This document shows, one piece after another, positions 24,100 to 64,000 of a stretch of 64,000 nucleotides of DNA; within the stretch, counting starts at the first letter, position 1; each line of letters starts with the position of its first letter. Origin of the DNA: Ignavibacteria bacterium (GTDB taxonomy: Bacteria; Bacteroidota; Ignavibacteria; Ignavibacteriales; Melioribacteraceae); contig WPAE01000004.1 in the NCBI GenBank assembly GCA_009773205.1, positions 1 to 64,000 of the forward strand, given 5' to 3'. The notes beneath the pieces are model-generated. The model was not told the origin of the DNA. It saw nothing but the letters and a program-made list of their open reading frames with translations, and searched no databases. The position numbers and the translations under genes were made by a program.

Positions 24100-25602
24100 T
24101 TATTTCATCAGCGTCATCTTCTTTGTTTCTACAAAACCACGTCCTAAGCCTGCCGAAGGATTTCCGGCGGTTAAGCGGTAAAAATAAACACCGGAACTCA
24201 ATTGAGAATTGACCCGCTTCCTGCCTCGTCTTGCGTCTTCGGCAAGGCGCGGAATGGAGAATTGAGAATTATATATACCTGCATTCTGAAACTCATCAAC
24301 TAATGTTGCAACCTCTCTTCCTAAAACATCGTAAACTTTTAAAGTTATGTGGCTTGCGCCCTGCAGCTTGTAACTAATAGCTGTTGCTGGATTAAACGGG
24401 TTAGGGTAATTTTGATGCAGTTCAAATTTTTCTGGCAGACTTGCTTTGCCGGATTTTGTACCAGATGTTTTGAAACGATAAATTTTGCCTGAACTGTAAT
24501 TAGCAAAATACAATTCCTTCTTTTCATCAATACCAAAAGTTGAAACCGGATGAGCCTTTGTAAACAATCTGTCATTAAATGCTTTCCCATTTTTTAGTTC
24601 AAGCGCCCAAATATGCCCGGAAACAAAATCGGCATATACATATTTGCCATAAAGTTCTGGTACTTTTGAACCGCGGTAAACAAATCCGCCGGTGATAGAA
24701 AATCCGCCCTCGCTGTTGTGCGGATATTCAAAAACAGGCGGAATGTAATTTGCGGCATTGCACCCGCTTGTGTTGAAAGAATGAGTCCCCTCATAACAAC
24801 GCCAGCCGAAATTGCCACCTTTAGTAATAATATTAATTTCTTCCCACGCGTTTTGCCCAACATCTGCCGCCCATAAATCTTTTGTAATTAAATCGAAACT
24901 GAAACGCCAAACATTTCGCAAACCGTAAGCGTAAATTTCTTCTTTATAACCTAAGTTGTTTCTCCTGAAAGGATTATCCAAAGGAATAGAATAATTTATT
25001 CCTAAATCTGTTTTATCAACATCTATACGTAAAATTTTGCCCAGATGAGATTGCAAGTTTTGTGCATAGTTTTGAGGATCGCCTCCGGAACCGCCATCGC
25101 CAAGAGAGATGTAAAGAAATCCGTCTGGTCCAAAAGAGGTTTGTCCGCCATTGTGATTTGAATAAGGCTGAGCGATTTGCATCAAGATTAGCTCACTGTT
25201 TTTGTTTGCCAAATCCGGATCCGTGGAAACTTTGAATCGTGAAATTATGGTTCTTCTTGATGGAGAGTTTGTAGTATAGTTTACATAGAAATAACCGTTA
25301 CTATTATAATTGGGATGAAAAGCCAATCCTAACAAACCCATTTCTCCACCGCTGCTCACTCTATCAGTAATATCGAGAAATACTTTTTTTGTCTTTACGG
25401 TTTGATTGTTTTCAAAAACCGAAATTATTCCTCTTTGTTCTACTATGAACAAGCGGTTTGAACCATCCGCCGCATTTTGAATATCAACAGGCTGCTGAAA
25501 AGTAAGTTCCGGAAAAGCCTGCTCGATTGTTAATTGTGCCGAAGAGTTGCTGCAAGAAATTAATGCAAGAAACAAGACAAAAATGGAAACAAAATATTTC
25601 AC
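24100..25602 (-). CDS. PQQ-dependent sugar dehydrogenase with T9SS sorting domain
   Basis: A 500-residue secreted protein. A signal peptide (about 1-22) precedes a six-bladed glucose/sorbosone dehydrogenase propeller (about 25-385) with GEMGLLGLAFHPNY, NHNGGQTSFGPDGFLYISLGDGG, GKILRIDVD and the repeat AADVGQNAWEEIN. It is expected to oxidise an aldose with PQQ. A type-A T9SS C-terminal domain follows (FELHQNYPNPFNPATAISY, VLGREVATLVDE, SSGVYFYRL, KKMTLMK), which targets it to the cell surface. Two foreign stretches interrupt that domain (PRLAEDARRGRKRV and PSAGLGRG); both keep the frame. It diverges from the redoxin gene. Confidence 0.9.
   Translation of the reverse strand: MKYFVSIFVLFLALISCSNSSAQLTIEQAFPELTFQQPVDIQNAADGSNRLFIVEQRGIISVFENNQTVKTKKVFLDITDRVSSGGEMGLLGLAFHPNYNSNGYFYVNYTTNSPSRRTIISRFKVSTDPDLANKNSELILMQIAQPYSNHNGGQTSFGPDGFLYISLGDGGSGGDPQNYAQNLQSHLGKILRIDVDKTDLGINYSIPLDNPFRRNNLGYKEEIYAYGLRNVWRFSFDLITKDLWAADVGQNAWEEINIITKGGNFGWRCYEGTHSFNTSGCNAANYIPPVFEYPHNSEGGFSITGGFVYRGSKVPELYGKYVYADFVSGHIWALELKNGKAFNDRLFTKAHPVSTFGIDEKKELYFANYSSGKIYRFKTSGTKSGKASLPEKFELHQNYPNPFNPATAISYKLQGASHITLKVYDVLGREVATLVDEFQNAGIYNSQFSIPRLAEDARRGRKRVNSQLSSGVYFYRLTAGNPSAGLGRGFVETKKMTLMK
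24201..24270. repeat. In-frame 60-bp insert flanked by a 10-bp direct repeat
   Basis: ATTGAGAATT at 24201-24210 recurs at 24261-24270, exactly 60 bases (20 codons) apart. Between them lies a GC-rich stretch encoding SIPRLAEDARRGRKRV inside the sorting domain, where relatives have a short loop. The layout looks like a short mobile palindromic repeat with target duplication, tolerated because it keeps the frame. Confidence 0.6.
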
Positions 25603-34275: not shown

Positions 34276-35445
34276 TTACATTTTTAATTTACTTTTTAAC
34301 CAGCCGGGAACCGCATCTTTGTGTACCATTATAGCAATGGTTTTTAGCCTTGCGTAAATTTCGCTCATGTACCAATAGCCATCATATTTTTTATCTTTTG
34401 TTCCCCACGAGTTTTTTACATAATAAAATTTGTAGCCGCGTTTATCTCTTGCCAATCCTGTAATGTGCATTAAGTGATCATCGGTGGTAGTTTGATTATC
34501 AAAAGATACCTGTCTCATCTCTTGTGTAATAAATTTTTCTTTAAGTGGCTCCTCGGTTTTATTCTCCGCGTTGTCTTGCTCAATATCTTCAAGCTCAACT
34601 TGAGGAATAATAGCAATCCCTTTCTTTTTATCAAAACTTTTTTCGCTTACATCTCCATCCCAAACAACAGAAAATCCTTTAGATAAAGCGGTATCAATTA
34701 AAGCAATCATTTCGTTAATTGGAATATTGTAGTACTTATCATTACTCCAGTTATCCGGAATTTCCAGAACGAACTTGGAATAAAACGGATGATGCGAGTA
34801 GGAAGTAAACTCAACGTAATCATCAGGGTTAAAATTTAGCGAATCACAAAAATTTTTAGGAGTGAAGATTCTTCCGAGATAATCAAACTTTACAGGCGGT
34901 GTTCCAAGATATATATTTAGCGTAGATTCAAAAACTTCATGCCAGCGAGGAGTAATTTTTCCGCCTTTGTTTCTTTTTACGGAGCTGACTATACCTTCCA
35001 ACACTTCTGCCATTTCTCCGTGATTGTGCTCATCTTCGCCAATATTCATTCCTTTATAATTCGCTTCGGGTATCATTCCTTTTTCGCGGATTATATTCAT
35101 TACATCGTGAGCCTGCCCGCCAACACTAAAATTTGTTGTGCCTGAATAACGAATATACTTTTGCGCTTTTAGCGGATAAGCATGGCGAACAAACCACATT
35201 GGAGAAATAAAGTGTTCTCCTTTTTTCATTCTAAGGAGTTCTGTTTCTATAAAAGATGTTGTGGCAAACGACCAGCAAGTGCCGGTTTTGGCTTGGTTTT
35301 TAACTGGTGTTGTTTTTACTTGATGAACCATCTCAAACTTGTAAACATCTTCTTCGCTTTTCTTTTTCTTGGTTTGAGTAAAAACAGAGTTATGTACAAA
35401 AAGAAATGAAATTAAAACAACCGGTAACAAACATGTTCTCTTCAT
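34276..35445 (-). CDS. Exported C1 family cysteine peptidase (bleomycin hydrolase-like)
   Basis: A 389-residue papain-superfamily peptidase with a signal peptide (LLPVVLISFLFVHNSVFTQ). The oxyanion Gln and nucleophile are in VKNQAKTGTCWSFA, the catalytic His in HLMHITGLA and the Asn in YVKNSWGTK. It resembles the C1B aminopeptidase C/bleomycin hydrolase group (GQAHDVMNIIREKGMIPEANYKG), which is usually cytoplasmic, so export is a Bacteroidota variation. ATG at 35445 gives a proper signal peptide; longer in-frame starts upstream would run into repeats. Confidence 0.88.
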   Translation of the reverse strand: MKRTCLLPVVLISFLFVHNSVFTQTKKKKSEEDVYKFEMVHQVKTTPVKNQAKTGTCWSFATTSFIETELLRMKKGEHFISPMWFVRHAYPLKAQKYIRYSGTTNFSVGGQAHDVMNIIREKGMIPEANYKGMNIGEDEHNHGEMAEVLEGIVSSVKRNKGGKITPRWHEVFESTLNIYLGTPPVKFDYLGRIFTPKNFCDSLNFNPDDYVEFTSYSHHPFYSKFVLEIPDNWSNDKYYNIPINEMIALIDTALSKGFSVVWDGDVSEKSFDKKKGIAIIPQVELEDIEQDNAENKTEEPLKEKFITQEMRQVSFDNQTTTDDHLMHITGLARDKRGYKFYYVKNSWGTKDKKYDGYWYMSEIYARLKTIAIMVHKDAVPGWLKSKLKM

Positions 35446-35508
35446 AAAGCCCCTTTTTATGTTTTGTTGATAGCAAAATAAATGTTGCTTAATTAAAAAT
35501 AAAGCCCT

Positions 35509-35700
35509 GTTTGTACTTCGCTTTCTTCGGGCAAGCGCTTTGTTCGTTAACCCTTGCCGATGTAATATAATCCGCCAGAGGCGGACGAGTGTCAAATTCC
35601 CCGCCTCTTGAGGCGAATAAATAAAATTTGTTTTCAGAAACCCCGCTGCCCCGCCTGCCAAAGCAAAGCGGCGGGCAGGTTGCGGCGGGGAGCTTCATCT
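35509..35700. repeat. Cluster of GC-rich palindromic repeats
   Basis: Several GC-rich inverted units lie in the gap 35446-36027: CTTCGGGCAAGC, TCCGCCAGAGGCGGACGAG, CCCCGCCTCTTGAGGCG, and CCCCGC...CCGCCTGCC with GGCGGGCAGG...GCGGGG. They resemble the repeats at 21500-21545 and near 24150. The remaining part of the gap (35701-36027) holds no gene that I can see; the SPFH promoter is probably there. Confidence 0.7.
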
Positions 35701-63787: not shown

Positions 63788-64000
63788 CAGCATAAGTTCC
63801 CATATTTTAAAAATAATTGTTCAAAAAATGCAATTACTGTGTTTAGGAGAAATGTCTTATGAATTCTATTTCTCTTTTCCCAAAGAGAAAATATAATGTA
63901 AGGTTAGGGTACCTCTAAAAGTTAGCATTTTAAAAATTTTAACGCGGAGTTCACAAAGAAAAAGCAAAGCTCACAAAGGATGTTGATATTTTTAGAGGCA

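Follow-up and report, generated by a model that had tools for sequence, protein, structure and literature searches.

The Host Gene and Its Sorting Domain

Are the extra pieces in the sorting domain of a secreted protein mobile repeats that entered in frame, or are they old protein sequence? The question is raised by one gene in a 64,000-nt stretch of DNA (hereafter the window) from the draft genome of an Ignavibacteria bacterium (G000; 4.14 Mb in 476 contigs). The product of the gene matches PF07995 at aa 35-347, and its C-terminal part (aa 399-481) matches both PF18962 (28.5 bits; cut-off 27) and the NCBIfam model TIGR04183 (29.9 bits; cut-off 23); its translation includes ...YNSQFSIPRLAEDARRGRKRVNSQLSSGVYFYRLTAGNPSAGLGRGFVETKKMTLMK. 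An AlphaFold2 model of the C-terminal domain, built from 18 tails of the same genome, has a mean pLDDT of 74.9 and places strands at model residues 3-6, 17-22, 26-34, 39-48, 51-56, 80-88, and 99-107. The T9SS chains 8gl8_D (E 0.013) and 8gl6_D (E 0.051) are among the 50 fold matches listed, in which others rank better. As judged from profiles and model, the domain is a T9SS type A sorting domain (CTD) with a predicted seven-strand Ig-like fold (table 1). The two extra pieces fall between conserved strands and keep the frame, as originally predicted, the first in the β5-β6 loop and the second in the β6-β7 loop.

Table 1. Coordinates of the features discussed; positions are those of the window unless a locus is named
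Feature	Position	Strand	Remark
CDS, 500 aa	24100..25602	-	Predicted secreted protein, glucose/sorbosone dehydrogenase-like, ending in a T9SS type A sorting domain
T9SS sorting domain (CTD), seven predicted strands	24103..24429	-	AlphaFold2
β3-β4 loop (LGRE region)	24316..24327	-	No length variation, 71/71 parsed tails
β5-β6 loop with array and core	24193..24261	-	Lowest-confidence part of the model
Heptamer array arm AATTGAGAATTGA, coding strand CTCAATT	24200..24212	.	
GC-rich core, 39 nt, CCCGCTTCCTGCCTCGTCTTGCGTCTTCGGCAAGGCGCG	24213..24251	.	Net insert 39 by array register
Heptamer array arm: one unit AATGGAG, then AATTGAGAATT	24252..24270	.	
Second insert, 24 nt, 8 residues PSAGLGRG, CCTTCGGCAGGCTCAGG-type	24136..24159	.	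β6-β7 loop
AT-rich MITE-like repeat copies	63927-63999; L243 15131-15226; L244 10538-10630; L247 18195-18287; L260 12108-12173		

The First Insert and the Dispersal of Its Core

The original prediction described the first insert as a 60-base piece bounded by the direct repeat ATTGAGAATT. The repeat is present at 24201-24210 and 24261-24270, and its spacing is 60 nt. Instead of bounding an insert, however, the two copies consist of heptamer units from an array, (AATTGAG)n, and are no target-site duplication; the register of the array gives an inserted core of 39 nt. The β5-β6 stretch of the window protein is 26 residues long versus 13 in array-only tails, a difference of +13, and within this loop pLDDT is < 50 at model residues 61-66 and 69-73. 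The 39-nt core looks like a 63-nt form minus 24 nt.

Copies of the core are spread through the genome. A 30-nt core (24220-24249) is found at 10 places in 4.14 Mb at ≤3 mismatches, five of them exact, and at none with the reversed control; a 141-nt query gave 54 genome matches at E ≤ 10. Several CTDs contain copies, as do intergenic gaps (e.g., after stop codons in loci L006 and L007), and one copy lies with its array in frame in a BFO_1060-type glycosyltransferase (L353). A search of intergenic gaps and other frames, suggested along with the prediction, returned both kinds of copy. A copy in another frame is in the gene of a DUF3108 protein (L316, 727-1581 on the minus strand), where it reads LASLVASRSG in the signal-peptide region. 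Arrays are not obligatory because two intergenic core copies (L012 and L015) are flanked by another repeat instead. Across 79 family genomes, a 70-nt form is matched in four: G000, its congeners G066 and G068, and G031 of another genus. The element also sits within CTD β5-β6 loops of the sister genomes G066 (L196) and G068 (L201).

Judged by its sequence relationships, the first insert is a dispersed repeat, and we consider it probable (about 0.78) that it is one of the copies of a tiny dispersed element that resides within AATTGAG heptamer arrays.

Two side observations concern individual copies. A single β5-β6 loop in L201 holds two tandem element-like pieces whose reading frames differ (LASLDASRSGS and SPRSTRVGAG). 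Contigs C106 and C248 end with the same CTD and element (the end of L010 and the start of L011), a case of repeat-limited assembly.

Heptamer Arrays and Their Interruption

In one orientation the AATTGAG heptamer is free of stops and reads NSQFSIL in every frame. Arrays are scattered over the clade, intergenic as well as intragenic. Of the 79 family genomes, 28 contain the exact double heptamer AATTGAGAATTGAG and four its reversed control; G000 alone has 15 occurrences of the double heptamer. In a set of one locus per genome inspected by eye, seven of 28 lie within the CTD β5-β6 loop, one of them that of G000. A survey of the arrays of G020, G029, G022, and G013 listed 60, which a script assigned to CTD β5-β6 loops (11), other open frames of at least 100 aa (21), and positions outside these (28). 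Adding L434 and L450 by eye raises the first class to 13 of 60. The binomial P for 11 of 60 is about 6e-19, given a target of 0.2% of the genome, which is an assumed figure. Inspection by eye also showed that, among the 21 open-frame arrays, those of L401, L407, L412, L417, and L430 precede the probable start codon or are in a questionable frame. Arrays or cores are in frame in AlaS, GltX, and RsmE (three genomes each), as well as in an aminotransferase, a molybdopterin enzyme, and an AMP-binding enzyme. The arrays of L441, L443, and L377 are in likely signal-peptide or N-terminal regions of proteins from other genera.

In G000, 11 of 71 parsed tails have an array (run ≥10 nt) in β5-β6, and nine of these 11 have a GC-rich core too. 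The β5-β6 stretch measures 13 residues with an array alone and 20, 23, 24, 26, 31, 33, or 34 with array and core (+21 to 63 nt). Loci with similar tail ends represent the different states: L130 has neither array nor core, L152 has the array only, and L014 has the array and a 30-nt core. GC-rich units are 21 or 30 nt long, with nested or trimmed forms of 39, 54, 60, and 63 nt. A script that looked for array-gap-array structures found 15 distinct cases, two of which are irregular array units only; the register is exact (phase jump 0) in six, with gaps of 21, 23, 30, 30, 39, and 63 nt. In several cases, then, units interrupt arrays in register, with neither duplication nor loss of the target. Surviving coding copies have lengths that are multiples of three and lack in-frame stops, so that each adds 7-21 residues to its loop. 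This divisibility is no separate evidence because it follows from the open frame; an intergenic case (L415) is 23 nt long, no multiple of three.

All 10 NSQF motifs in CTD loops of G000 are spelled AATTCTCAATTC, where codon usage expects 3.3% each; the tails come mostly from a protein search and are partly duplicates, so that independent events are fewer than 10. Over all loci the same spelling accounts for 42 of 61 motifs, in a set enriched through the array search itself. We take the copying to be at the level of DNA, without protein as the copied unit.

Filled and Empty Sites in Orthologous Genes

The clearest comparison is offered by GltX, the essential glutamyl-tRNA synthetase, whose orthologs differ in the presence of a unit. 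In G000 the site has an array without a core, and in G066 the array there contains a 30-nt unit that belongs to the type found in CTDs. Between these two genes (78.3% DNA identity) there is one 30-nt gap, inside the array, in addition to two short gaps near the 5' end. Between the more similar GltX genes of G029 and G021 (96.2% DNA identity), the sole gap is 21 nt. Inspection of the site by eye in 30 genomes found an array in 13, with a core in three of these (G021, G025, and G066); the arrays of G000, G066, and G013 are oppositely oriented. These comparisons are read as presence and absence of a unit at an orthologous site, brought about by either gain or precise loss.

The arrays themselves do not lengthen loops. 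With a core-free array (G029 and G062), the GltX loop has 36 codons, the same as without an array, and the glycosyltransferase loop has 21 residues in L360 and L361, with or without one. Because a core-free array keeps loop length, the array is expected to have replaced sequence or to have arisen in place, and the core alone adds length.

At the window gene, the syntenic ortholog in G066 (74% identity, same neighbor gene) has STLPASHSARQGGRSSL at the β5-β6 loop instead, the G030 ortholog has NSQFSTLLTGRHVNNSQL, and those of G014-G016, like most other orthologs, have neither array nor core. Sharing of the same extra residues among orthologs of different genera, which would point to old protein sequence, was looked for and is absent from the orthologs compared: the congener differs, and distant orthologs are empty or have other residues.

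Loops That Tolerate Inserts

Of 74 CTD tails listed in G000, 71 were parsed, with counts based on regular expressions (a tail that ran off its locus and two truncated ones were left out; L020 and L027 are the same place counted twice). From the β3-β4 LG motif to the following conserved G, all 71 have a stretch of 12 residues. The stretch before this motif (β2-β3) is 18 residues in 67 and reaches a maximum of 36, the β5-β6 stretch is 11 in 28 tails and at the longest 34, and the tail after β6 is 19 in 56 tails and 25-27 in 11. Among family orthologs of the window protein (with neighbors on the same loci), the β3-β4 stretch is 12 in 25 of 25 parsed tails and the β2-β3 stretch exceeds 18 in nine of 25; in named genomes, the β3-β4 stretch is 12 in 40 of 42 (3, 5, and 1 of the 28, 47, and 32 tails in the ortholog and named-genome sets were unparsed).

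The cited passages of PMC11285876 state that secretion in P. gingivalis requires the β3-β4 loop and the C terminus, and that a β-hairpin in the β5-β6 loop of PorU/PorZ is functionally irrelevant. In the natural tails, the β2-β3, β5-β6, and β6-β7 loops accept inserts and β3-β4 accepts none, in agreement with the Porphyromonas mutant data. The pattern of CTD inserts can serve as a mutagenesis experiment that nature has performed on the T9SS signal. In L182 and L184, the sorting domains end after the LGRE motif; these may be pseudogenes. In G000, L150, L180, and L023 have β2-β3 or β5-β6 loops with good hairpins of other families (e.g., GTAAAGACGCGCCGTGGCGCGTCTCTAC), for which there is no clear copy elsewhere in that genome.

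The second insert of the window is also present as predicted, and the tail after β6 is 27 residues versus 19. Other copies of this type found in G000 are in sorting domains only. The idea that both extra pieces are mobile repeats is therefore borne out for the first, which has intergenic, glycosyltransferase, and GltX copies, but not for the second, which is confined to sorting domains and may have spread by copying of whole tails. Inserts of other types behave in the same way. Strong matches to the RHAELSRS and ARHLELVS inserts, the GTAAAGACGCGCC hairpin, and the PSAGSGQG piece are limited to CTDs of their own genome, and GHSERSRG has two partial matches outside CTDs, on C61. In a 464-kb sample, a non-CTD match was obtained for 19 of 57 insert queries versus 17 of 151 control loops, many of the matches being 15-16 nt only. 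That all CTD inserts are dispersed repeats was rejected, most others being matched only in CTDs; the confinement of most other inserts suggests that copying among tails is also at work.

Proposed Mechanism and Alternative Explanations

Dispersal, register-keeping interruption, presence and absence at orthologous sites, recurrence in the CTD loop, and absence from β3-β4 can be read from the sequences themselves. We distinguish two layers. In one, heptamer arrays occupy loops (CTD β5-β6 and sites in GltX, AlaS, and RsmE), and in the other, GC-rich units of 21 or 30 nt interrupt such arrays. The core may move from array to array by template switching or gene conversion, with the array arms on both sides supplying short homology for its copying. 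Duplication of CTD tails would then spread some copies, and most copies would be neutral passengers in permissive loops. It is possible, at somewhat less than even odds, that arrays overwrite tolerant coding loops in a length-neutral manner and serve as landing pads into which 21- and 30-nt units are copied with register and frame intact, even in essential aminoacyl-tRNA synthetases. If this were true, the units would rank with the smallest known mobile DNAs, and the T9SS signal would be a recurrent docking site that diversifies the tails of surface proteins.

One alternative is that only whole sorting-domain tails are duplicated or converted and that nothing small is mobile. The window and L002 tails have 85% identity over 141 nt, long tails are common to L003 and L020 and to L014 and L010-L011, and most other insert types, like the CCTTCGGCAGGCTCAGG piece, are confined to CTDs in G000. 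Tail copying does not explain core copies that are intergenic, in frame in a glycosyltransferase, or at GltX of a sister species, and it is contradicted for the first insert by GltX; as a full account it is unlikely.

Movement as a REP or MITE, driven by a RAYT-type Y1 transposase, is improbable as well. Short, GC-rich units are what this would lead one to expect, and G000 has three Y1_Tnp (PF01797) matches. At these three loci, however, units and arrays do not exceed the level of 20 random 3-kb pieces, insertion leaves no target duplication, and the array register is kept. Mobilization by RAYT was rejected on the three loci without units.

RNA-mediated copying, which has reportedly been proposed for cyanobacterial SDRs, would fit the precise insertion without duplication, as well as a size class and a heptamer setting like those said to mark SDRs; drawn from this analogy, it is given a low probability. 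That the inserts are ordinary old loop sequence or chance similarity is very unlikely. The protein motifs at these sites, YN(V/S)(E/Q)F for CTDs and NS(K/E/Q)(F/Y) for GltX, are close to an array reading to begin with, so that few changes would be needed to produce an array, yet old loops do not account for perfect 7-nt periodicity, the one codon spelling in 10 of 10 motifs, both array orientations at one GltX site, or syntenic orthologs with different inserts. Finally, an artefact of the fragmented assembly is most unlikely: repeats do lie at some contig ends (C106 and C248), but the copy in the window lies 24 kb into a contig of 191 kb, and such structures recur across several genomes, some of them assembled in few contigs (eight in G029 and five in G030).

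Comparison with Known Small Repeats

The best-known selfish repeats that lie in frame are those of Rickettsia and Wolbachia, and mobile repeats of less than 30 nt are known from cyanobacteria. In-frame insertion and tiny size are combined here, in a lineage far from all of these. The inserts were originally likened to the palindromic elements of Rickettsia. RPEs are described in the cited passages as 105-146 bp long, forming long stem-loops and ending in inverted repeats of about 12 bp (Ogata et al. 2000, through the review PMC2229807). As far as that description goes, the likeness lies in selfish-looking repeats that occur between genes and in frame in unrelated protein genes whose products tolerate them. 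The elements here differ in size (39 nt in the window and 21-63 nt in most other copies), in weak pairing, in their AATTGAG setting, and in clustering in a single loop of a single secretion-signal domain. The window copy folds no better than its shuffles (DNA fold z = +0.23), other copies have DNA fold z of -0.97 to -1.77, and hairpins are not enriched among inserts as a class (six of 56 inserts versus 10 of 145 controls at p ≤ 0.05). The comparison with Rickettsia thus holds for in-frame and intergenic copies and breaks down for palindrome, size, and flanks: the elements work like RPEs yet have neither their size nor their stem-loops.

The SDRs of cyanobacteria, reportedly described by Elhai and coauthors in 2008, are said to be about 21-27 nt long, to lie often within tandem heptamers, and to be nested. 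Embedding in heptamers and precise insertion without target duplication, features reported for SDRs, are both found here. The 21-nt units (L423, L427, L456, L464, and L009) are within the size range reported and the 30-, 39-, and 63-nt units outside it. The sequences, phylum, and heptamer differ, several units are at least 30 nt long, and many are in frame in conserved genes. By analogy with these features, the 21-nt units inside heptamers most resemble cyanobacterial SDRs. For one family, SDR5, the cited text gives insertion precisely between nucleotides 3 and 4 of HIP1 (PMC4390886).

Some REP/REPIN repeats associated with RAYT are intragenic, including at about the same recB site in two Xanthomonas species, in the cited part of PMC3733652. 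The elements here are likewise small dispersed repeats with some copies within genes; relative to REPs as described there, they differ in that neither a RAYT association at the three Y1_Tnp loci nor a tagged hairpin was found. Arrays of another heptamer, TAACTGA, are reported from Beggiatoaceae, Cyanobacteria, and some Bacteroidetes, in Maribeggiatoa mostly just upstream of start codons (PMC4679880). These are likewise dispersed tandem heptamers, in another clade, and the cited passages mention no inserted cores (PMC4679880). A literature search at the level of listings, which is no proof of absence, found no paper on such elements in Ignavibacteria or in sorting domains. Because near-identical filled and empty sites are available in an essential gene, comparison of close genomes can test how small mobile DNA can be and how repeats enter proteins.

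Other Repeats in the Same Sequences

The element did not stand out in a k-mer census of the 464-kb sample, in which AT-rich words and other, longer repeats predominate. Three other repeats were noted. An AT-rich, MITE-like dispersed repeat of about 65-96 nt has inverted ends GGCACCTCTAAAAAT...ATTTTTAGAGGTGCC (table 1). A repeat of about 100 nt starting AATCCGCCAGAGGCGGACGAG is found in the window (35568-35679), where it overlaps the start of a called ORF (34276-35661 on the minus strand), and in L246 (16053-16152) and L262 (4014-4112). A third, of about 150-165 nt and starting GAGACCTCTGAAAAATT, is found in L245 (8832-8983) and L247 (15896-16060).
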